Positions 44,584-57,595 of a DNA stretch of 64,000 nt are shown piece after piece (the stretch's first letter is position 1; the number at the start of each line of letters is the position of its first letter). This DNA comes from Desulfuribacillus stibiiarsenatis. GTDB lineage: Bacteria; Bacillota; Bacilli; Desulfuribacillales; Desulfuribacillaceae. A program made the translations under genes and the position numbers. Under the pieces are notes generated by a model. It worked only from the letters and a program-made list of their open reading frames with translations. It was not told the DNA's origin and made no database searches. The stretch spans positions 62,001 to 126,000 of the forward strand of contig NZ_MJAT01000033.1 in NCBI RefSeq assembly GCF_001742305.1, in the 5' to 3' direction.

Positions 44584-47367
44584 GTTTCAATTCCCTGCAC
44601 GGAAATTAGATGTTTGTTACACAGCCTGATATAGTCAAAGACCCAGCGACTACGTTGAAGTTTCAATTCCCTTAACGGAAATTAGATGTTTGTTACGATG
44701 GATGAGTTCGTTGCCGCAGTAGAGAAACACGCAGGGTTTCAATTCCCTGTACGGAAATTAGATTATTATTACGCAGAAAGAGTTGTTGATCTTCGAATTC
44801 TTCATGGTAAGTTTCAATTCACTAATCGGAAATTAGATTGTTATTACTGACGTTACAAGACAACATCAAAAGGCAGTTAGAATGTTTCAATTCCCTAATC
44901 GAAAATTAGATGTTTGTTACATAGCAAGAAGTATCTTTTTGTATCACGCCAACTATGGTTTCAATTCCCTTAACGGAAATTAGATGTTTGTTACGATCCT
45001 TTTGCTGGTGGACCAACAATCGATATCAGTGAGTTTCAATTCCCTTAACGGAAATTAGATGTTTGTTACATAAAGCAAAATGTTATCTCTGAGTCTCAAT
45101 ATAAGTTTCAATTCCCTTAACGGAAATTAGATGTTTATTACCAGGTAAGACTACTGCCCATTGTGTGAGACTGGCACTATTGTTTCAATTCCCTTAACGG
45201 AAATTAGATGTTTGTTACTTTAATAGATTCTCCCCCTCCTAATGATTACACGATGTTTCAATTCCCTTAACGGAAATTAGATGTTTGTTACATATAATCA
45301 AGAATTTCAATTAAATTAGACTGATCCGTGTTTCAATTCCCTTAACGGAAATTAGATGTTTGTTACGCCGACAGAACATATAGAGCAGCCAATAAAGAAA
45401 ATGTTTCAATTCCCTTAACGGAAATTAGATGTTTGTTACTCAATAGAATATTTAGGAGCTTCACTATGGAATGGCTTAGGTTTCAATTCCCTTAACGGAA
45501 ATTAGATGTTTGTTACTTTTCTTGTCGAAATCGTCCAGGTTATGTTCTGTTAGCTTGGTTTCAATTCCCTTAACGGAAATTAGATGTTTGTTACTCCAGA
45601 AGAAAATATGCACGCGGCAACAAAGCAGTTTGTGTTTCAATTCCCTTAACGGAAATTAGATGTTTGTTACTAAGAGTATCAAATACAAGAAAGGATGTTT
45701 AAATTAGTTTCAATTCCCTTAACGGAAATTAGATGTTTGTTACATGATAGAAGTTTTTTATGCCACTGGCTGCAGGCTATCGTTTCAATTCCCTTAACGG
45801 AAATTAGATGTTTGTTACGACAGAAAGAGATTTAGCAAATGCTATCGGCGAAACAGAGTTTCAATTCCCTTAACGGAAATTAGATGTTTGTTACTCAACG
45901 TGTACAGCTCGTGGATCGATCGATGTCCATGTTTCAATTCCCTTAACGGAAATTAGATGTTTGTTACATATTCAAGAAACTCAAGACACAGATGTTGAAG
46001 AAATGTTTCAATTCCCTTAACGGAAATTAGATGTTTGTTACCAAAGTCTGTGGGATTGGCTATTATAGATGTAGAAGTGTTTCAATTCCCTTAACGGAAA
46101 TTAGATGTTTGTTACACTGCAGGAGATCCATTACGTGGAATCCTTGAAAAGTAGTTTCAATTCCCTTAACGGAAATTAGATGTTTGTTACTAAGAAAATC
46201 ATTCTTATTATAATCAATACCTACATTTGTTTCAATTCCCTTAACGGAAATTAGATGTTTGTTACGGCGCAAACGGTGAAATAGCCGCCATAGTAGATAT
46301 GTTTCAATTCCCTTAACGGAAATTAGATGTTTGTTACACGGTCATTCGTTCCGCTGTTAGTCTTAAGATTAAGTTTCAATTCCCTTAACGGAAATTAGAT
46401 GTTTGTTACAGGATAAGGTTAAGGGCCCCTACATAGTTACAGAAAAGTTGTTTCAATTCCCTTAACGGAAATTAGATGTTTGTTACTTATATACAGTTGA
46501 CTTGCAAGATATTAAAGTAACGTTTCAATTCCCTTAACGGAAATTAGATGTTTGTTACGAGGGTGGTTTTAGTTAAGATATGGATAATGATTGACCAGTT
46601 TCAATTCCCTTAACGGAAATTAGATGTTTGTTACGTTACTGACGGTACAGTGTGGATTCAAGCGCGGCATGTTGCGTTTCAATTCCCTTAACGGAAATTA
46701 GATGTTTGTTACCGATAGCTACGCTGGAAGAAATGAAAGCGCAGCGGGAGTTTCAATTCCCTTAACGGAAATTAGATGTTTGTTACGGCAGCAGAGAAAC
46801 GTGCAAATGAAAAAAAGGAAGCGTTTCAATTCCCTTAACGGAAATTAGATGTTTGTTACTAATAGATAACAAGAGTGGCGCAAGTACATCTGTTACTGTT
46901 TCAATTCCCTTAACGGAAATTAGATGTTTGTTACCAAAAGCGATCAAGACACCGTACACAGACAAAAGGGTTTCAATTCCCTTAACGGAAATTAGATGTT
47001 TGTTACTGGCTACGGCTACCGCCGTGGTCGTTGGTGGTACTGTTTCAATTCCCTTAACGGAAATTAGATGTTTGTTACTGAAAGAACAAACGTGTGAAGT
47101 TGGTATGGATGAGTTTCAATTCCCTTAACGGAAATTAGATGTTTGTTACGGCAAATAAAACTGCACTGATGAGACTTGAATAGTGTTTCAATTCCCTTAA
47201 CGGAAATTAGATGTTTGTTACTTTACCCTGATAAACCGTCTATGACATACCATATCAGTTTCAATTCCCTTAACGGAAATTAGATGTTTGTTACATGTAG
47301 TAACAGCCGTAAAGATTTATTGCTGAAATTGTTTCAATTCCCTTAACGGAAATTAGATGTTTGTTAC
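44584..47367 (-). CRISPR. CRISPR array 1: 38 repeats of 37 nt, 37 spacers
   Basis: On the plus strand each repeat begins GTTTCAATTCCCTTAACGG and ends AAATTAGATGTTTGTTAC. Spacers are about 35-41 nt. The variant repeats are all at the low-coordinate end (starts 44584, 44736, 44811, 44884; single changes at 45105), so the leader is at the other end, next to cas2, and the array is transcribed on the minus strand. In that sense the repeat ends ATTGAAAC, the 8-nt crRNA handle of type I-B and III systems. No spacer matches anything else I noticed in the window. Confidence 0.98.
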
Positions 47368-47604
47368 CGCTTATGGTTTTTACCTTTGATAGCTATATTT
47401 TGACTGAATCTAATTCGAGAGCCTCATTAAGTGCTGTTTTCCAACCTCTTTAAGTTTCAAATAGTAACTTTAAATTGCTTGAATATCCAATGTTTCCAAT
47501 GACCGAGCAACTCTTAGAAATTCCAGCCACCCGAACCTCTCGATATTTTGACTCTTTTAATGTTTTCTATGGTATATAATTCTACATTGATATCGAATCT
47601 CCTG
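47368..47604 (-). promoter_or_regulatory. Leader of CRISPR array 1
   Basis: AT-rich non-coding DNA between cas2 and the newest repeat. TCGAGAG (47415-47421) and CTCTCGA (47537-47543) form an inverted repeat found at exactly the same distances in leader 2. A block beginning CGAGCAACT (47504) and containing AGCCACCC before GAACCTCTCGA is also shared. Confidence 0.85.
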
Positions 47605-47880
47605 TTAATAAACCAAATCAATATCACCAAACACTACAACATTCGTGCCTAGCCGCTCCAAATCACTCTTACAACTAGCGCACTGGGAATAGAATATGAT
47701 GCTATCTTCCTTCTTCATCAATCGTTTCAGTCTATATTTCAAATTGACATACTCTTCTTTTGTTATGATTGCCTCAAAAACACTATACTGTACAGGTGTC
47801 GCATAATCCTTTAATGTCTTGAAGATTTTCGTTCTCCGTTTATCATCGCGAATGTCATATACAATTACTATATGTTTCAT
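47605..47880 (-). CDS. cas2: CRISPR-associated endonuclease Cas2
   Basis: 91 residues with the ferredoxin-like Cas2 fold: MKHIVIVYDIRDDKRRTKIFK has the conserved Asp at the end of strand 1, and VQYSVFEAIITKEEY is the typical following strand. Cas2 dimers bridge two Cas1 dimers during spacer integration. The ATG at 47880 comes 2 nt after the cas4-cas1 stop, with AGGTG 9 nt upstream within that gene. Confidence 0.95.
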   Translation of the reverse strand: MKHIVIVYDIRDDKRRTKIFKTLKDYATPVQYSVFEAIITKEEYVNLKYRLKRLMKKEDSIIFYSQCASCKSDLERLGTNVVVFGDIDLVY

Positions 47881-47882
47881 TA

Positions 47883-49526
47883 CTAACGCACCTGATATGG
47901 AGTATATTCTGGCCACTCATTGGTCAGAACTTTAGCAAGAAAACGCACCTGTAGTTCTAACATTCTTCGATAAGTTACTTTATAATGAAATAGCGGATGG
48001 GTCGCCTCTTGGTTCATTCTCGTTTGGTATGCTTTAAAGAAATTTTTCCTTCCAGAATCCTTTAATTCACAACCTCCAATAGTTTCTACAAAATCATCTG
48101 GCTTTAGCATCTTCGTGTTTATGGCTGTTATTACGACGGAATCTGCTATTATTGGCCTGAACTCTTCCATAATATCAAGTGCCAATGCAGGTCTTCCGTA
48201 TTTATCTGAGTGAAAAAAACCCAAATATGGATCAAGTCCTACGCGGATGATTGCCTCAATGACATCCTTGGTTAATAACGTGTAAGCAAAGCTTAATAAA
48301 CAGTTAACTGGATCTTTCGGTGGTCTTCTATTCCGATTGACGAAGGCGAACCCTAAATCTTCTTTCAGCAACTTGTTGAAAACACTGTAATAATATTTCG
48401 CTGCAATCCCTTCAACGCCCATGATACTTGCAACGGAATCACAAGTTTTTAATTTTTTTAGACAAGCGTTCAACTCGTTAGCTACGTTATGAATATCGTT
48501 ATCTTTAATCGTGCGATTATACCGTAATAGCGTAGTCCTAGAGTTATTGATTTTCCCCGTGACAAATGCTTTAGCAAATTGCAACGTATGTTTACAGTTG
48601 AGGTTTGCAGCATATTGAGCTTTTCTCAGAATGACGTTTTTGTTTAATGTTGGCTGTAACCACCCTTTGACCTTCCCTTTATCCAATACATAGCAGGAGA
48701 CTCCTAAATCGCACATCGTTGCCAATAAAGATCCTGTCATTGCAGCTGGTTGCCCTAACACTACTTGATCAATAGCAGACAAGGGTATATCTTTTGTTTC
48801 CTCATTGATCTTCAGTTTAATTCTACCTTGCTCTTTTTTTAAATATGCCCCTGGGGTATCAATGTATAGGATTCTTCCTAAATCCATAGAAGGGGATGGT
48901 CTTCTTGGTGTTTTTTTCATATTGTCTTTGCCGTTAGTTTTCTGTATAAGTGCTTCTGTCTCCTCAGGCAGACAGCGGCTAATTAAACTGCAACCGATAC
49001 AACGACTGTCATTCACTGGTTCAGGTATGATATTCTCATCAATCATTACCCTAGCATCTTCAACAGTTTGAAGTGCCAATTCTCTCAATTCTTCTGTGAA
49101 ATCTACTGATATTCGTTGATTTGACTCAGAATAATAGATATATCCCCTATCAATACTCGTCCCAATATTTTCTTCAAGTAATAGAGCTTGCAAACAAAGC
49201 TGAACTCTATCATTTAACTGATTTTGGGCGATACCTTTTTTAAATTCAATCGGATATACTTCTTGTCCATTCTCTTCAATCGTATCCAAAACTCCTACTA
49301 AACCAAGATTATCCGATGTTAAATATACTTTTCGAGTTTGTATCCCAGTCGGTCTTACTTTTCTCTTAATTTCATCTCGTGCCTCTTCCTGCCATTTCCC
49401 TTCCAAAACATGATTGTTCCTCTCATCAGCCATCATAACTGTACGATAGTAGAAATTTCTTGGGCAATATAAGATTTCTGCGATGGATGAAATAGATAAA
49501 TACTCAATCTCAACAGTTTGTTCCAT
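47883..49526 (-). CDS. Cas4-Cas1 fusion protein
   Basis: 547 residues. The Cas4 part (1-185) has the Fe-S cysteines CPRNFYYR near 20 and CIGCSLISRC near 175, and the RecB-type nuclease motif YPIEFKKG near 100. The Cas1 part (about 205-547) shows GRILYIDTPGAYLKKEQGRI, AIDQVVLGQPAAMTG, EGIAAKYYYSVF and HSDKYGRPALALDIMEEFRP with the metal ligands Glu, His and Asp/Glu. Cas4 trims and selects PAM-bearing prespacers and Cas1 integrates them. Such fusions are best known from type I-G (I-U). I chose the ATG at 49526, with GGAGG 9 nt upstream. Confidence 0.94.
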   Translation of the reverse strand: MEQTVEIEYLSISSIAEILYCPRNFYYRTVMMADERNNHVLEGKWQEEARDEIKRKVRPTGIQTRKVYLTSDNLGLVGVLDTIEENGQEVYPIEFKKGIAQNQLNDRVQLCLQALLLEENIGTSIDRGYIYYSESNQRISVDFTEELRELALQTVEDARVMIDENIIPEPVNDSRCIGCSLISRCLPEETEALIQKTNGKDNMKKTPRRPSPSMDLGRILYIDTPGAYLKKEQGRIKLKINEETKDIPLSAIDQVVLGQPAAMTGSLLATMCDLGVSCYVLDKGKVKGWLQPTLNKNVILRKAQYAANLNCKHTLQFAKAFVTGKINNSRTTLLRYNRTIKDNDIHNVANELNACLKKLKTCDSVASIMGVEGIAAKYYYSVFNKLLKEDLGFAFVNRNRRPPKDPVNCLLSFAYTLLTKDVIEAIIRVGLDPYLGFFHSDKYGRPALALDIMEEFRPIIADSVVITAINTKMLKPDDFVETIGGCELKDSGRKNFFKAYQTRMNQEATHPLFHYKVTYRRMLELQVRFLAKVLTNEWPEYTPYQVR

Positions 49527-49621
49527 GAAAAACAACCTCCATTCACTACTATATCTAATCCCAGTATTACCAATTTTCATACCGTTCATAAGTAGTTCTA
49601 AGGCTTATTAATCAGGCCAAT

Positions 49622-50920
49622 TCTTAATTCTCTGTTCGGAAGTTAGATTTGTTGTTACTATACGGTGGAATGTCAAGAGAAGAAAGATCTGTAAGTTTCA
49701 ATTCCTTGTTCGGAAATTAGATTGTTGTTACCTTGACCAAGACGAGGTTATCATAGAGTGGACTAAGGTGTTTCAATTCCCTGTACGGAAATTAGATTGT
49801 TGTTACTTAATATCAATAATACTATCATACAGTTTCATGAAAACGTTTCAATTCCCTGTACGGAAATTAGATTGTTGTTATGCCATTATTGTAAGGCCTC
49901 CTGATACTCATAATGGGTTTCAATTCCCTGTACGGAAATTAGATTGTTGTTACTGTAAATGAAATAAACAAAGGAAACATAACTATTGAGTTTCAATTCC
50001 CTGTACGGAAATTAGATTGTTGTTACATTAACAGTTTATCAAATACAGGTGACTTTACCGATGTTTCAATTCCCTGTACGGAAATTAGATTGTTGTTACA
50101 GAAACTTCATTCCGTTGAAAAACAAGATTTTATCGATGAAGTTTCAATTCCCTGTACGGAAATTAGATTGTTGTTACTGATCTTCAGACATTACAGGATA
50201 AAGCAGCTGAAGGTAAGTTTCAATTCCCTGTACGGAAATTAGATTGTTGTTACAATTTATGACGATAGGTTCACACAAGCGAGTTCACTTTTGTTTCAAT
50301 TCCCTGTACGGAAATTAGATTGTTGTTACATAAGGAGCTTTACAATGTGAGCGTAGACGTATTATTGTTTCAATTCCCTGTACGGAAATTAGATTGTTGT
50401 TACCTGACAATTTGCAAGAGTAAATTCGGACTTCGTGTTTCAATTCCCTGTACGGAAATTAGATTGTTGTTACCCAATTGATTATGAGATTGCCAAAGAA
50501 AACGGAATATCGTTTCAATTCCCTGTACGGAAATTAGATTGTTGTTACCCCAACGGGCAGACCTCCCCCTAGCGTTGCATTGTTTATGTTTCAATTCCCT
50601 GTACGGAAATTAGATTGTTGTTACGTCGATGTAAATGCTGTAACAGCTGGAGTTCATATGTTTCAATTCCCTGTACGGAAATTAGATTGTTGTTACTTAA
50701 AAATCTTAATAACTTACCTGAATGCGAGGATAAGTTTCAATTCCCTGTACGGAAATTAGATTGTTGTTACCAAGAGGTCGAGGTATACAAGTTTAAGTTT
50801 GCCGGCGAGTTTCAATTCCCTGTACGGAAATTAGATTGTTGTTACGAAAACTTTAATCCATCTCGTGAAGTTACTGTTTATTCGTTTCAATTCCCTGTAC
50901 GGAAATTAGATTGTTGTTAC
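49622..50920 (-). CRISPR. CRISPR array 2: 18 repeats of 37 nt, 17 spacers
   Basis: Repeats begin GTTTCAATTCCCTGTACGG and end AAATTAGATTGTTGTTAC on the plus strand, differing from array 1 at TTA/GTA and ATGTT/ATTGT. The oldest repeat (49622-49658) is strongly decayed and the next (49695) has two changes, so the leader is at the high-coordinate end, next to cas6. Transcription is on the minus strand and would run towards cas4-cas1, which starts 95 nt after the last repeat. Confidence 0.98.
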
Positions 50921-51244
50921 CGCATCAGAGTTTTTCCATTATCAGTTATGTGTTGTGTCGCTATAAATCGAGAGGCTCAGTTTTAAAAGTGGATTTGCGT
51001 ACAAAGAAACTAGTTTGGTAATTCTAAAGCTTATTTTACATAGAATTCTAAACATCGAGCAACTTCTGAAAAAATTAGCCACCCTGAACCTCTCGAAAAA
51101 ATAATTATTATGTGTAGCCTATCTACTTCTATACTTCTTCTAGACTATTTAGTAAATTTCCTTCTTACGTAAAGATTTGAGTAATAACGGATAATAGCAA
51201 ACTAGTAAGGATTCCACTACATTGTCTAGAAACTTTTAAGCAAA
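50921..51244 (-). promoter_or_regulatory. Leader of CRISPR array 2
   Basis: Non-coding AT-rich DNA between cas6 and array 2. TCGAGAG (50968-50974) and CTCTCGA (51090-51096) sit 47 nt from the repeat and span the same length as in leader 1; here the arms extend to 12 of 13 pairs. The block CGAGCAACT (51056) with AGCCACCC is shared. Confidence 0.85.
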
Positions 51245-52015
51245 CTACTTCATCAATCGTACTTGTCCCATTCCCATTGTTGTTTTATAGCCTACTCCTG
51301 AAAAGGCAGCAAACTGAGACAACGAATTTACTGCCCATTTCATTACTTCTGCTGAATCGCTTGGTAGTGTATAGTTACATATCCCCTTAAAACCAATCAA
51401 GTTATAGTTTTTGAATGGAACCATAATCGTTTTCAACTCATACTTTGATACATTTATTTGAGAGAAATCTACAATTGGCAACTGAACTTCACTGAAATAT
51501 TCCCATTTATCTTGCAAACTACCAAATACTAATTCGGGCTCTGGAAAAAGCAACGTTTTCCCACTACTACGAAAGCAAGTTGGGGCGGTAAATTCAATAT
51601 TAATTCGCGAGTCCTGATATCCTGCCGCCATAAAATCATAATATGTTTCTTTACTTATCAATTCTTTTGCCTCTACTACTACGAAACCAGCACTTCCAAT
51701 CACCAATAAATTCTTCTTTAGATATTCAAGCATATCAGGCAGACTATTAGTCAATCTTTCTGTCAAAGTCGCCAAAGTAAATGAGCAAATGCTTCCTTCT
51801 TCAATCTGTGCTACACCATCACGCCGCTGAAGCTTTCCAGCTAACGGTCCAATGCTAAATGGTTTGTACTGCATTTGATGAATCTCAGAAGCTAGCTCAT
51901 TATCAATATTCTCTACCGCCTTAAAAAATAATCCGTGTAATTCTGCCCCTCCATGTCCTTTGATTATTCCTGATTCCTGGCAAAGTAATTGTATTGAGAT
52001 TTTTTTTAGTTGCAT
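51245..52015 (-). CDS. cas6: CRISPR-associated endoribonuclease Cas6
   Basis: 256 residues. The C-terminal glycine-rich loop AAFSGVGYKTTMGMGQVRL is the Cas6 hallmark; HGGAELHGLFFKAVEN near residue 25 holds the likely catalytic His. Cas6 cuts the repeat 8 nt before the spacer to release crRNAs with an ATTGAAAC handle. The ATG at 52015 has GGAGG 10 nt upstream; the csm5-like gene stops 49 nt upstream. One Cas6 presumably processes both arrays, since their repeats end alike. Confidence 0.9.
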   Translation of the reverse strand: MQLKKISIQLLCQESGIIKGHGGAELHGLFFKAVENIDNELASEIHQMQYKPFSIGPLAGKLQRRDGVAQIEEGSICSFTLATLTERLTNSLPDMLEYLKKNLLVIGSAGFVVVEAKELISKETYYDFMAAGYQDSRINIEFTAPTCFRSSGKTLLFPEPELVFGSLQDKWEYFSEVQLPIVDFSQINVSKYELKTIMVPFKNYNLIGFKGICNYTLPSDSAEVMKWAVNSLSQFAAFSGVGYKTTMGMGQVRLMK

Positions 52016-52064
52016 GTAAGGAAATCCTCCAATTGCCAATTAAGTTGATACTATTTTGTTATAT

Positions 52065-52895
52065 CTATTCCATAACTTCTTTTATGTTAACCAATCCATA
52101 AGGTAAAAATAGTACTTTATCAATAAATAATGCCCCTGCATTTTCTTCTAAACCTAGGATTGAGTGTTTCAGACCTTTGTATCCACCGATTATGATTAGG
52201 TTATTATTAGCTAGCGTATCTTTAAGCTTATTATTTATTCGAGTTAAATCGTTAAATTCTGGATTCATTTCTTGTAATTTATCTAGATATTCTAGCATTT
52301 TTTTTACTTTTATCTCGGTAGTATAAGAAATATTTTTAAGAAAAGAATTAATCGAAAAATCACTAGGGATTGATATTGTCAATTGTAGTTCAACATTAGG
52401 TTTTAACATTTCTATAGCAACATTTTCAAAAAATGGTTCCCACTTAACTTTTTTACGCTCCGTTTCGTTTTCCGTTTCGTTTTCCGTTTCGTTTTCCGTT
52501 TCGTTTTTTTTGGGCGATTTAATGTGGTTTGAAGCCAAAAAATCCCTATTAAGATATTGTACTTTATGTAAATTTCGAAGTTCAATACTAGTATTTTGAA
52601 GAGGAACATCATCGACAATAATTTTAGTTTCTCTATTATTTGAAGCATGTACCATAGCTCCCTTCAAAGAAGAACCTGGTATATAATAGTTGGTCTCTTT
52701 CGGCGAGTATTCTTCATATTGACCGTATTGATAAAATGGATAGATAATATTAGGAGTCTCATCATCTGGCCATTTATCATCAAGGTCTTGATATTCATAA
52801 TCAACATTTTTGTAAAAGGCTTGGCTTTCCCTTGGCGATATAATTATATATGATTTTGTTTCTAATTTAATTTTATATTTTTTGTAATTATTCAT
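52065..52895 (-). CDS. Type III RAMP protein, Csm5-like (Cas7 group)
   Basis: About 276 residues. YYIPGSSLKGAMVHA near residue 75 is the RAMP motif (IPGSSLKGAIR in Csm5). In type III-A complexes Csm5 caps the 3' end of the crRNA filament. A run of four NETE units lies in the middle, coded by a 12-bp tandem repeat. I chose the ATG at 52895 (MNNYKKYKIKLE), overlapping the stop of the upstream gene by 8 nt; the longer frame to 52964 would overlap it by 77 nt. A Csm5 assignment rests on position and motif. Confidence 0.78.
   Translation of the reverse strand: MNNYKKYKIKLETKSYIIISPRESQAFYKNVDYEYQDLDDKWPDDETPNIIYPFYQYGQYEEYSPKETNYYIPGSSLKGAMVHASNNRETKIIVDDVPLQNTSIELRNLHKVQYLNRDFLASNHIKSPKKNETENETENETENETERKKVKWEPFFENVAIEMLKPNVELQLTISIPSDFSINSFLKNISYTTEIKVKKMLEYLDKLQEMNPEFNDLTRINNKLKDTLANNNLIIIGGYKGLKHSILGLEENAGALFIDKVLFLPYGLVNIKEVME
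52461..52508. repeat. 12-bp tandem repeat, four copies, inside the csm5-like gene
   Basis: Unit CGTTTCGTTTTC on the plus strand; the last copy ends in T. In frame on the minus strand it codes for the acidic repeat NETE four times, flanked by lysines. Units can be gained or lost without frameshift. Confidence 0.95.
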
Positions 52896-53889
52896 AAACC
52901 AGTGCCCCCCTACTCTGCAATGGATATAAAAAGGAGTTGCCAAACACGATGGAATTCTTGTCAAATTTCGCTTCTATAGATTGAGTCAAATCATTAAGTT
53001 TATACTTATTGGTACAAGCTATGATACTACCAGAAGAAATAAAGCTCAGAAAATGATTGTCCTTCTCAATAATGTGCGTATCCCAACTCCCAACCATTTC
53101 AAAAGGTCTACGATCAGATGTGTATAGTTGCAAAACGGAATTATTATAGTCAATATGCTCTGGAATCATCATCCCTAGATTAAGATAGTGATTTGAATTA
53201 TGATTGTTTACTTTTTCTGTTATTGCAGATTTGAAAGTAAATAAATTGAACCCCTGCGATGCCCTTTTTCCTAGTACTACTATTTCTTTTTTCTCTACTA
53301 ATGAATACAGACAACTTAGAAACTTATCGACCAAATCCGCATAAATATTTTCGTAACATGGAATTCCGACAAAGAACTCATAATCTGTTATTACCTTGTG
53401 TTCTTTGCTTTTACTCGAATGAGGAATGAGAACATATTCATTTTTTGGCACTGAATACAGGTCATTCCCTATACCAGCCAACTGATAAACATCTTCTTTT
53501 ATTCCCAGTCGAATTTGTTGACTTGAAACCTTGGATATATAGTCGAAATTAAAAACGTTGCTATCAATACTGCTGATATCTGACAGAAGGTTCCATTGGC
53601 ATTTGCTAACAAAGTCTAGTTTCTTAATCTGCTTATAATACTCTTTCTTCCCATCACCTTGATATCGAGAAATCAAATAGTTTTTAGGCGTCGGGATATA
53701 ATTTTCTGGTAACATATCTGAAATCATTAGAGTTATCTGCTTTTGTTTAACAGCCTTTACAAACATCTGTCCTTTTTCATGCCCATATTGATCAGAAAAC
53801 AAGTACATTAGACAGCCAAATATTTTTTGTGAATCAGGCAACTGTGTCATTTGTCCATTTAATTTCATTTGTATTTTATGTATCTCCAT
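52888..53889 (-). CDS. Type III RAMP protein, Csm4-like (Cas5 group)
   Basis: 333 residues. The N-terminal GQMTQLPDSQKIFGCLMYLF corresponds to the SDTLFGAL-type helix of Csm4, and VLGKRASQGFNLF near 210 is the glycine-rich RAMP loop. Csm4 binds the 5' handle of the crRNA and Cas10. GGAGGG lies 11 nt before the ATG at 53889. It lies between the csm3-like gene (23 nt upstream) and the csm5-like gene (8-nt overlap), the order of type III-A operons. Confidence 0.8.
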   Translation of the reverse strand: MEIHKIQMKLNGQMTQLPDSQKIFGCLMYLFSDQYGHEKGQMFVKAVKQKQITLMISDMLPENYIPTPKNYLISRYQGDGKKEYYKQIKKLDFVSKCQWNLLSDISSIDSNVFNFDYISKVSSQQIRLGIKEDVYQLAGIGNDLYSVPKNEYVLIPHSSKSKEHKVITDYEFFVGIPCYENIYADLVDKFLSCLYSLVEKKEIVVLGKRASQGFNLFTFKSAITEKVNNHNSNHYLNLGMMIPEHIDYNNSVLQLYTSDRRPFEMVGSWDTHIIEKDNHFLSFISSGSIIACTNKYKLNDLTQSIEAKFDKNSIVFGNSFLYPLQSRGALVYE

Positions 53890-53912
53890 AAGAGCTTCAG
53901 CCCTCCTTATAA

Positions 53913-54620
53913 TTAGCCTTGATCTTGAAAATCTATTATTATTTTCCCATAGCCTCTACTTTTTGAGTTCCCAATTCTATAAATTCCTTCGTTAAATTTA
54001 GTTAAACTAGACTTTACAAAATCACGAACTATTTTTAAGCTTTGTTCATTACTAAAATTATAGAAATCGATTTCCCCTGCAAATGTAATACCCTTTATAA
54101 CAGACTTATATGTTCTCGGGTTTGAACTAACCGTTGATTTCTCTTTATCTTCCGTTATAGAATTCTTACTATCTATAGAAAAGCACTGTTCTGATTGAAG
54201 TGAATGGTTCATTACATGAAAGTCAGAAAAAATTAGCTTTGGTGACCGATTGACTCCTTCGATACCAAATAAATATTCTAACGATATTCGCTCTTTTGTA
54301 TTTAGAAATTGTTGCAATGCTTTGTCTAACTTCACCTTGTCATCCATACGATGTAATAATGTTATCTTTTCTTCTTCTGTTTTAAAATAATCTTCGTATA
54401 TTTGAACTATATATTTGTTAGAGTTATCCTGTATTGTAATCATGTCTTTAATCATAGCCCTAAAAGCACCTTTGAATGATGATGCTGGTATATATGGTTT
54501 GCCCTCATTGTCTAAAACAGTGCACTGATCAATTCCGCCAATCTCAAAAGTCGAGGGTGCACCACCAATAAAAAGATTCGAGTCCGTAGTTATAATTATT
54601 TTTAAAGGATTTCGTTTCAC
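53913..54620 (-). CDS. csm3: Type III RAMP protein, Csm3-like (Cas7 backbone)
   Basis: 235 residues. SNLFIGGAPSTFEIGGIDQCTVL at residues 14-36 contains the Asp (GGID) that cuts target RNA in Csm3; PYIPASSFKGAFRAMI follows, and GNSKSRGYGKIIID is the C-terminal glycine loop. It forms the repeated backbone of the effector and cleaves target RNA every 6 nt. The start is GTG at 54620, overlapping the cas10 stop (GTGA), with GGCGGGG 7 nt upstream. RNA cleavage is thus predicted to be intact. Confidence 0.88.
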   Translation of the reverse strand: MKRNPLKIIITTDSNLFIGGAPSTFEIGGIDQCTVLDNEGKPYIPASSFKGAFRAMIKDMITIQDNSNKYIVQIYEDYFKTEEEKITLLHRMDDKVKLDKALQQFLNTKERISLEYLFGIEGVNRSPKLIFSDFHVMNHSLQSEQCFSIDSKNSITEDKEKSTVSSNPRTYKSVIKGITFAGEIDFYNFSNEQSLKIVRDFVKSSLTKFNEGIYRIGNSKSRGYGKIIIDFQDQG

Positions 54621-56656
54621 TTGATTACCCCGCCTTTTTTATTTTTTTGTTGATGGTTTTTGTTACCTGTTCGTTTATTATCTTTGTCTTTTTCTTTTTC
54701 GAAAGCATCTTTGTAAATATTTTTAAAGGCAATTAAGGCATTATCGTAGTTATAAAAGTTTATCAAAGAATCTATGAAATCCTCATCCCAATATTTTTGT
54801 TCGGAATTATCTGACGCCTTTTTCTCAAAAACTGTCGAATTAAAATCTTTATAGTAGACAGGTTTTTCTTTACTATCTGTTTTCTGGTCTTCACGCAACT
54901 TTGTATGTTTTAGTATGGCAACAGTTCGTTCTATAGATTGTAAATTTTTATATTTCTTTAATTTGAATAACATTGATGAAGTAAGTTTTACTTTGCAGTA
55001 TATTTCAATCCGTCCACTATGCTTTTTTCTTTCTATAAAAAGTTTTCCGTAGGGGTTTCTATTAATAATATGATCATATAAATAGCGAAGCGGTTTAGTA
55101 TATACGAGGCTTTTGATCTTTAAAAGCTTCCAATAATCATTATTAAACTCTATCTCCGTTAATTCCTCATTAAAAGTGGCTTTAAATCGCTCATCAGAAA
55201 AAAACATTAATAGTCGAAGCTTTTTTTCAAACCAGTATTTAGTGTTCTCGTTAAGAGTAATTTCTAGTGAAGGTCTAGAATTACTTGATACATTTGTTAA
55301 TAGAAAATCTATCAATAGTTTTTTTAACACCAATTCGGGCTTGGACTTTTGCCTGTCACCGATATACTCAGGAGTTAGATGGTACAATACTGAATTGATA
55401 TACGCTATATTGTTCCCTTTGATGGTTGTGTCCGTGATTCTGTCTAGCAGCTTATGAAAGTAGCTTGGGGTTCCTAAACTATCACAGCCCTTTAATCGAA
55501 TATAGTTTAATAGTTTTACTTCGTTATACAGTTTGCTCCAGCCAATTTTTGATCCCTTCCCCTTAAACTCTTCATATGATGCAAAGAACGTATTATTTAT
55601 GCATATTCCTACTTTAATAATTCCTGGCTCTTTATTCTTTTTCGCTATATTCAACTGATTTTCTACACGTTCATAATAATAACGTATTGGTTGTTTATTA
55701 TATGATATATCTATCCCTACACTCATTGAGAGCTTTTTATCGCTATCAATCTCTTGTTCAATTTTTATATTCATTTCATTTAGCATTGTCTTCAGTAAGT
55801 TGACTGCCGTGAAAATATGATTGACATTAACAGCAAAAAAAATGTCGTCTCCTGCAACATAGAATGGAAACATCTTGAAATTTTTCACTTTCATTTTTTC
55901 ATAATAATGGTGGAGCTTATCTAGAGATATAAAATCCGATAAAATTTGACTTAGCTTGTCATAGGAGCTTGCATTATCTATCCTTTTAAACAGATCACCT
56001 ACTCCATCCAAATCCGCCTTAATAACTGCAATTCTGTATTGTTCATTTTTTCTCCCATCTTGCTGATTCTCCTGGTATACGTCTGGCAGCAGATCATCAA
56101 TATTTTTAGCAAAAATGTATTCATTCACTGTAGAGGCTTCCTTAGCTTCCTCTTTATGAAACCCTATTTTAATGCAGCTTTTAGGAATATATGTTGCTTC
56201 TGGAAAGCGGAATAAAATTTCCTTATTCGCTTCTATAATACTGTTCCTACTTTTTGGGTCTTCTAATTTTTGCTTGCAAGTTCGAATATTAGCTAATTTA
56301 TCAAAAGAATCTTCAATAATCACATATTTCAGTTCAACCTGACCAGCAAATAGATGGTAATAATCACGGTATAGCTCATTTAGTTTTTGAATCACTATCT
56401 CTTTTAAGAGTACTGTTTTAAAAATTACTTTTCCAGGTATACTTAGTAAAATCTTACTCTGGTTTTCGTGCTTTCCCTCTATATAAAACTTCTTTTGCAC
56501 AGCTTCCATAAATAATTGAGAAATCTCTCTAGATGAGTTGCAAATAGTTTTCAGTGTATCTTCTTCTTTTTGTTTCTCTTGCTCGTGTGCTCTTATAGCG
56601 TGATAGAGAAAATTTTGAATTTTATCGATTGTAATAGCTACAATTAAACTTCTCAT
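54617..56656 (-). CDS. cas10: Cas10/Csm1-like large subunit without HD domain, AGDD variant
   Basis: 679 residues. The protein starts almost at the first palm domain (AITIDKIQNFLYHA, residues 7-20, the DISGIQxF region), so the N-terminal HD DNase of typical Csm1 is absent. The second palm has KADLDGVGDLF (D215, D217) and VAGDDIFFAV (268-271), where the usual GGDD is AGDD. The metal ligands for cyclic oligoadenylate synthesis therefore remain, with a changed loop. About 190 C-terminal residues (from FIERKKHSGRIEIY) are extra, ending in a Lys/Asn-rich tail. GGAGG lies 6 nt before the ATG at 56656, and the DUF6602 gene is 12 nt upstream. Confidence 0.88.
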   Translation of the reverse strand: MRSLIVAITIDKIQNFLYHAIRAHEQEKQKEEDTLKTICNSSREISQLFMEAVQKKFYIEGKHENQSKILLSIPGKVIFKTVLLKEIVIQKLNELYRDYYHLFAGQVELKYVIIEDSFDKLANIRTCKQKLEDPKSRNSIIEANKEILFRFPEATYIPKSCIKIGFHKEEAKEASTVNEYIFAKNIDDLLPDVYQENQQDGRKNEQYRIAVIKADLDGVGDLFKRIDNASSYDKLSQILSDFISLDKLHHYYEKMKVKNFKMFPFYVAGDDIFFAVNVNHIFTAVNLLKTMLNEMNIKIEQEIDSDKKLSMSVGIDISYNKQPIRYYYERVENQLNIAKKNKEPGIIKVGICINNTFFASYEEFKGKGSKIGWSKLYNEVKLLNYIRLKGCDSLGTPSYFHKLLDRITDTTIKGNNIAYINSVLYHLTPEYIGDRQKSKPELVLKKLLIDFLLTNVSSNSRPSLEITLNENTKYWFEKKLRLLMFFSDERFKATFNEELTEIEFNNDYWKLLKIKSLVYTKPLRYLYDHIINRNPYGKLFIERKKHSGRIEIYCKVKLTSSMLFKLKKYKNLQSIERTVAILKHTKLREDQKTDSKEKPVYYKDFNSTVFEKKASDNSEQKYWDEDFIDSLINFYNYDNALIAFKNIYKDAFEKEKDKDNKRTGNKNHQQKNKKGGVIK

Positions 56657-56668
56657 AGCTTTCCTCCT

Positions 56669-57595
56669 TTAACCTTCTAATTCCAAGTGATCATTGAACA
56701 TTTTTACGTACGCCTGATGTGGAAATAGCAATGGGTTATTAATCAACATGAGCATTTGATTTAACTGAAAAATGAGCGAAAGAATAGATATCTCTTCTTT
56801 CTCGCTTTTCTCATTTTTGCTACTAAAGACTTTATAGTTATTAAATGAAATATCAAGATCTTCATTAGATTTAATAACATTGTCAATTGTGCCATTATGA
56901 TTTAATCTCTTATATGCTTGTGCTAAAGTGTTAATATCATCATTTATTGAAACTTGTAATCTTAGCTTATTTGTTCCTTGTTCTCCCGTTGTAATAGAAG
57001 TTGTGGAAATTGTAAAGTCAAATATTTTTTTTAAATTATGTGTATCTGTCCATTTCTCATTTAAATGACATAAAATTTTTATTGGTCTTGTTGATGTTTG
57101 AGTCTGCTTATATTTCTCTTCAATTTTAGTAGTTTCATCACTTTTAATAATGCTTTCAGATTTATTTATAGCGATATAGCTATGCATTCTAGCTATTGAG
57201 TTAAAACAAGTTTTAAGTTTGTCAATTCTATAAATCCAATCACTAATTCCTTCTGGGCCAAGACTATTACTCTTGCACTGAATTACTACCGCTACAGCTT
57301 CTATCGGAATAAATTTCATTTCTCCATAGTTAAAAATATATGGGGTATATTGTTCATCAAAAATAGCTAAGTCCACTTCCTTCGATACACTACCTTCAGA
57401 ATCAATAATAAAAACAGATTGTTCTATAGAAAATTTTTTAGGAACAATTTGTTCAAATAATGATTTCCAGATTTTTTCTCGGAAACTGCCAATAACAGTT
57501 GGATGTTCACATTGCAAATGCAATTGGTTTGCAATAACGCTCTCTAATTCTTGATAATTTTTTGCTATTAAATTAATCAATTTAATATCGCCCAT
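56669..57595 (-). CDS. DUF6602-type protein, predicted PD-(D/E)XK-like nuclease, in the type III operon
   Basis: 308 residues, the first gene of the effector operon. SFREKIWKSLFEQIVPKKF (E40), SKEVDLAIFDEQ (D75) and FIPIEAVAVVIQCKSN (Q106, K108) follow the pattern I associate with DUF6602 and with PD-(D/E)XK nucleases of the QxK kind, as in Mrr. The C-terminal 180 residues are helical and polar and have no named motif; there is no CARF or SAVED domain or membrane segment. GGGGG lies 6 nt before the ATG. Position 12 nt before cas10 argues for an accessory effector or regulator of the type III system. Nuclease activity is inference. Confidence 0.72.
   Translation of the reverse strand: MGDIKLINLIAKNYQELESVIANQLHLQCEHPTVIGSFREKIWKSLFEQIVPKKFSIEQSVFIIDSEGSVSKEVDLAIFDEQYTPYIFNYGEMKFIPIEAVAVVIQCKSNSLGPEGISDWIYRIDKLKTCFNSIARMHSYIAINKSESIIKSDETTKIEEKYKQTQTSTRPIKILCHLNEKWTDTHNLKKIFDFTISTTSITTGEQGTNKLRLQVSINDDINTLAQAYKRLNHNGTIDNVIKSNEDLDISFNNYKVFSSKNEKSEKEEISILSLIFQLNQMLMLINNPLLFPHQAYVKMFNDHLELEG

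Follow-up and report, generated by a model that had tools for sequence, protein, structure and literature searches.

In type II-A CRISPR systems a short leader-anchoring site beside the repeat directs integration, and three leader motifs (I, II and III) of cyanobacterial type I-D were reportedly described by Kieper et al. in 2019. For Synechocystis 6803, a review reports that three motifs of the I-D leader enhance spacer uptake and that a bending host factor has been proposed (PMC10212523). In type I-F, once IHF has folded the DNA, inverted repeats of the leader make contact with the integrase (PMC12259127), and according to PMC13034035 it is unknown in types I-A, I-D and I-G how Cas1-Cas2 locates the leader end if IHF plays no part. 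Acquisition by a type V-B system in E. coli needs no Cas proteins beyond Cas4/1 and Cas2 (PMC9419969). Here we report that two CRISPR leaders in a 64,000-nt window (the whole stretch of DNA that was analysed) share a layout of short sites at partly fixed distances, and we follow this layout into related leaders.

The locus encodes a type III system whose adaptation module is of the Cas4/1 kind (Table 1). Its fused Cas4-Cas1 protein matches NF049935 at 628 bits (cut-off 560), and the Cas4 cysteines and conserved Cas1 nuclease residues are invariant in our Cas4/1 alignment (A1). Because the effector is of type III with NucC, the locus is not a type I-D system and has only a leader that is built like one. 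Both leaders are read on the minus strand, and the repeats, followed in the direction leading off from the leader, run ...GGGAATTGAAAC.

Table 1. Features of the CRISPR locus (window coordinates; negative numbers are distances from the first repeat).
Feature	Position	Strand	Description
CRISPR array 1	44584..47367	minus	37-nt repeat GTAACAAACATCTAATTTCCGTTAAGGGAATTGAAAC; degenerate repeats at trailer end
Leader 1	47368..47604	minus	separates array 1 from cas2 stop codon
Site C, leader 1	47415..47421	minus	CTCTCGA on minus strand; CTCG end at -49 from repeat
Site B, leader 1	47504..47511	minus	GTTGCTCG on minus strand; CTCG end at -137
GGTGGC element, leader 1	47526..47531	minus	within A-B unit
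Site A, leader 1	47537..47543	minus	TCGAGAG on minus strand; CGAG start at -175
cas2	47605..47916	minus	
cas4-cas1 fusion	47883..49589	minus	NCBIfam cas4g_cas1g, above cut-off
CRISPR array 2	49621..50920	minus	repeat GTAACAACAATCTAATTTCCGTACAGGGAATTGAAAC on minus strand
Leader 2	50921..51244	minus	separates array 2 from cas6
Site C, leader 2	50968..50974	minus	CTCG end at -49
Site B, leader 2	51056..51063	minus	GTTGCTCG on minus strand; CTCG end at -136
GGTGGC element, leader 2	51078..51083	minus	within A-B unit
Site A, leader 2	51090..51096	minus	CGAG start at -175
Type III effector genes	51245..57595	minus	cas6, csm5-like, csm4, csm3, cas10, nucC

Several other features of the locus were observed. 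The nucC gene (56669-57595) ends the type III effector (51245-56656) and lies beside a Cas10 with weak model matches, no small-subunit gene was recognised among the effector genes (51245-57595), and the effector is possibly a reduced type III variant. The csm5-like gene contains a tandem 12-nt unit (TCCGTTTCGTTT) at 52459-52506. Degenerate repeats occur at the trailer ends of both arrays (44584-44900 in array 1, 49621-49720 in array 2), and the old end of array 1 carries repeats like those of array 2 (GTACAGGG, GTGCAGGG), a sign that the two arrays may have exchanged sequence.

The initial annotation had noted an inverted repeat in the same geometry in both leaders, and this observation stands. 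On the forward strand, TCGAGAG (site C in Table 1) begins 47 nt beyond the end of the repeat in both leaders (repeat ends 47367 and 50920), and the span from there to its partner CTCTCGA (site A) is 129 nt in leader 1 and in leader 2. While a lone 7-mer inverted repeat in one leader is ordinary (2 and 11 such repeats, with shuffle means of 2.3 and 7.1), the geometry common to both leaders is remarkable, and it arose in 0 of 20,000 dinucleotide-shuffled leader pairs. The accompanying description of the arms, as lying in mostly differing sequence apart from the 40-nt block beginning CGAGCAACT, is borne out as well. Between the two leaders this distal block is 85% identical (shuffled mean 52%, maximum 73%) and site C 90%, while the B-C linker reaches 54% (shuffled 52%) and the repeat-adjacent 47 nt 57% (shuffled 50%).

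With the distal unit and site C this similar and the linker at the shuffled level, the 40-nt block can be understood as a palindrome of two sites, A and B, and the second arm as a third copy, site C; as we read the sequences, the two arms first noticed are two of three sites. Towards the array, on the minus strand, their order is A (CGAG...), B (...CTCG) and C (...CTCG). Together, A and B make up a palindrome some 41 bp long, with half-sites CGAG...CTCG and a conserved inner part, lying 136-176 bp upstream of the first repeat, and site C, in the same orientation as B, ends 48-49 nt from the repeat in most leaders. Site B lies within the CGAGCAACT block and had been missed as a palindrome partner; it, and not the proximal arm, is the true partner of the distal arm. 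As in multi-motif adaptation leaders of the I-D kind, several conserved motifs thus occupy the roughly 200 bp before the first repeat: in the window leaders A lies at -175, B at -137 (leader 1) or -136 (leader 2) and C at -49.

Related leaders distinguish rigid from flexible distances. The distance from the start of A to the end of B (39-40 nt) and that from C to the repeat are rigid, while the B-C spacing varies from 77 to 102 nt in relatives, with values clustering at 77, 81-82, 87-92 and 98-102; a helical phasing of this spacing was tested and was not convincing. In a related genome (G001) whose Cas4/1 is 84% identical to that of the locus, the leader adjoining cas2 carries TCGAGAGG together with GTCTCGA, 47 nt from the repeat and with a span of 130 nt, and a second array 25 kb away has the layout too. 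The 129-nt span, although identical in both window leaders as noted, is therefore not the conserved quantity. All four arrays of these two genomes have the layout with linkers at random identity, and the alignment of their four leaders retains only the blocks TCGAGAG (A), GGTGGC, CTCG (B) and CTCGA (C), GGTGGC being invariant within the A-B unit in 4/4. Conservation in related leaders had been named as the check on the initial annotation, and both sites and phasing recur there. Another leader (L053, 8010-8238) has a normal A-B span but about 141 nt to site C, far above the other leaders.

A scan of genome contigs with a single Cas4/1 sequence gave no matches, while an alignment-based scan gave 80 loci. 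Searching whole genomes, GTDB contigs and plasmids, we assembled 71 leaders of loci whose Cas1 belongs with those of Cas4/1 fusions and type I-D, among them a few outliers; they come from one relatedness-biased scan and, though de-duplicated, are non-independent. Under a strict call (CGAG, a CTCG whose end is 39-40 nt from the start of A, and a further CTCG with its end between -47 and -51), 51 of these 71 leaders have the A-B-C layout, against a mean of 0.003 in shuffles. None of 36 control I-B and I-C leaders of the same class has it, among them that of the I-B array in the genome of the window, which belongs to a separate system (L234, G000:C34:40000-58000). A letter-blind test, which used a word derived only from the A/B pair, likewise places the third site at -47 to -50: of 66 leaders, 43 have their best match there, and no other position has more than two. 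At the junction itself, the only thing shared is a GC-N end, common to 35 of the 51 strict-layout leaders.

The layout adjoins genes of type I-B (L050, L051, L032 and, with the longer linker, L053), I-D (L130, where cas4 and cas1 are separate, and the Poribacteria leader L058), I-G (L073), III (the window and the III-D-like L097) and V-B (L038). By these comparisons it accompanies at least five types of CRISPR array, from many phyla and with related spacer-inserting enzymes, and in the Cas1 tree all its bearers fall within one clade. Its presence across five effector types indicates that it tracks the adaptation module and not the effector. An assignment of L032 to type III from its repeat was rejected, as its genes are Cas3b/Cas8b-like and place it in I-B. 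Further copies near the junction were seen in some leaders: a site D in 10 of the 51 strict-layout leaders, mainly V-B and in neither window leader, and a fourth, outward half-site copy (CGAG) starting about 12 nt before the first repeat in L039, L041, L043, L044, L047 and L130, again mainly V-B.

The geometry is kept where the letters are not. Poribacteria have CTGTGAG-like words, with letters differing at all three sites, and the I-D leaders of Picosynechococcus and Synechocystis have TTTGGCA/TGCCAA words at equivalent places, again with changes at all three. A layout that stays in place while its letters change suggests a shared reader, co-evolving with its sites. The I-G leaders show little co-variation of letters beyond the core, in cyanobacterial I-D leaders of another Cas1 branch B and C are directly repeated GCGCAA words with no clear A, the R. 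marinus leader has no CTCG at C, and one leader (L008) has no part of the layout. The window leaders alone fail the letter-free test, since beyond the core their B no longer resembles A and C; their apparent membership rests on the CGAG/CTCG cores and on their relatives.

Based on these observations, we consider it likely that each leader carries a docking signal for the Cas1-Cas2(-Cas4) integrase in spacer insertion, with the B-C linker looped. The only genes common to all these loci are cas1, cas2 and cas4, which makes the integrase the best candidate reader; the comparisons point to a factor tied to Cas1, Cas2 and Cas4, and it is from this that we infer the integrase itself. The sufficiency of Cas4/1 and Cas2 in the V-B assays agrees with this view, and type I-F offers a precedent for leader inverted repeats that touch the integrase. 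A C2-symmetric Cas1-Cas2 integrase (here Cas4/1-Cas2) would hold the first repeat while contacting site C and the A-B palindrome, whose symmetry, by analogy with these systems, would suit such a complex, and site C would fix the register. The AT-rich B-C linker would be looped, perhaps by an HU-type protein, and insertion would be limited to the leader-repeat junction. The signal would thereby probably tell the enzyme where to insert new memories. The protein-bridged loop anchoring Cas1-Cas2 that was first proposed fits the comparative evidence, in that sites and phasing recur, track the adaptation genes and match the Synechocystis I-D layout, but it would be built on a palindrome and a third site and not on one inverted pair. 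More tentatively, and with slightly less than even confidence, we propose a single IHF-independent leader code common to I-B, I-D, I-G, III and V-B, in which a clade of C2-symmetric Cas1-Cas2(-Cas4) integrases would read the A-B dock and, on the other side of a variable loop, the phased half-site C, the letters co-evolving with the integrase and the geometry staying fixed.

A host DNA-binding protein, HU-like or other, might instead read A, B and C and bend the leader, with Cas1-Cas2 recognising only the resulting shape. IHF has this role in types I-E and I-F, a host factor has been proposed for I-D (PMC10212523), and the genome has three genes of PF00216, an IHF/HU family that does not separate HU from IHF. 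We nevertheless regard this account as unlikely, since the layout is found across many host phyla yet only with one Cas1 clade, is missing from the I-B array of the same genome, and has letters that vary between lineages. The IHF consensus WATCAANNNNTTR is absent from both window leaders and matches 2 of the 51 strict-layout leaders, which disfavours the IHF-like anchor suggested by the initial annotation. That supplying just Cas4/1 and Cas2 is enough for type V-B acquisition in E. coli also speaks against a host factor, with the proviso that E. coli has its own HU and IHF. That the sites are operators or promoter parts controlling array transcription is less probable again. Looping operator pairs about 90 bp apart are known in bacteria, which counts in its favour, and leaders do carry array promoters (PMC10212523); however, no -10-like element recurs at a constant distance from C, promoter scans of the window are near shuffle level, and no regulator gene is common to the I-B, I-D, I-G, III and V-B loci, whereas cas1, cas2 and cas4 are.

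An RNA or cruciform hairpin of A with B (or with C) seems to us the most improbable of these accounts. The A-B unit of V-B folds strongly (z -5.5), one I-G leader does so moderately (z -2.4), and the inner pair 12/38 co-varies; however, the A-B segments of the window fold at shuffle level (z -0.2 and 0.0), where A has CGAGA the matching T is missing from B in 8 of 11 leaders, and site C carries the motif yet lies outside the hairpin. The long-range RNA stem offered earlier as an alternative is disfavoured by the same folding at shuffle level, by mismatches that are usually uncompensated and by an Rfam search of structured RNAs that gave no match. In V-B loci (L044:3262-3312, L046, L048) the A-B unit comes directly after a stretch resembling a tracrRNA anti-repeat. 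Since it folds strongly there and follows what looks like a tracrRNA end, a second role is possible, and the V-B A-B unit may also end the tracrRNA.

A defined layout of three sites at fixed and flexible distances, common to five effector types and present in I-D and V-B leaders already used for acquisition assays in E. coli, makes the question of how leaders are found without IHF directly testable. The layout is also a means to recognise and orient leaders, and could pair orphan arrays with their adaptation module.

Among the known systems, type II-A likewise directs integration by leader DNA, but from a site beside the repeat, whereas the sites described here lie 48-176 nt away. The IHF-dependent leaders of I-E and I-F share the principle we propose, in which bending of the DNA carries a distal leader motif to the integrase, and their motif phase is reported to matter; they differ in that the window leaders lack the IHF consensus, go with another clade of Cas1 and have three half-sites, with a B-C linker that ranges from 77 to 102 nt in relatives. 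Closest is type I-D, whose leader, about 200-220 bp long, is reported to hold several motifs, set apart from one another, that increase spacer uptake; the leaders of this locus likewise have separated motifs. The Synechocystis 6803 I-D leader (L264) itself has the A-B-C geometry with TTTGGCA/TTGCCAAA words; in the letter-free test 0 of 500 shuffles were as good, with C at -46 and A-B symmetric. We infer that motifs I-III of cyanobacterial I-D would correspond to A, B and C. The papers covered by our literature search contain no earlier description of the extension to I-B, I-G, III and V-B or of the geometry of palindrome and fixed C, though a prior report elsewhere is possible. The finding is a variant of adaptation-leader motifs already known, of which those of type I-D are the most similar, and extends them broadly.
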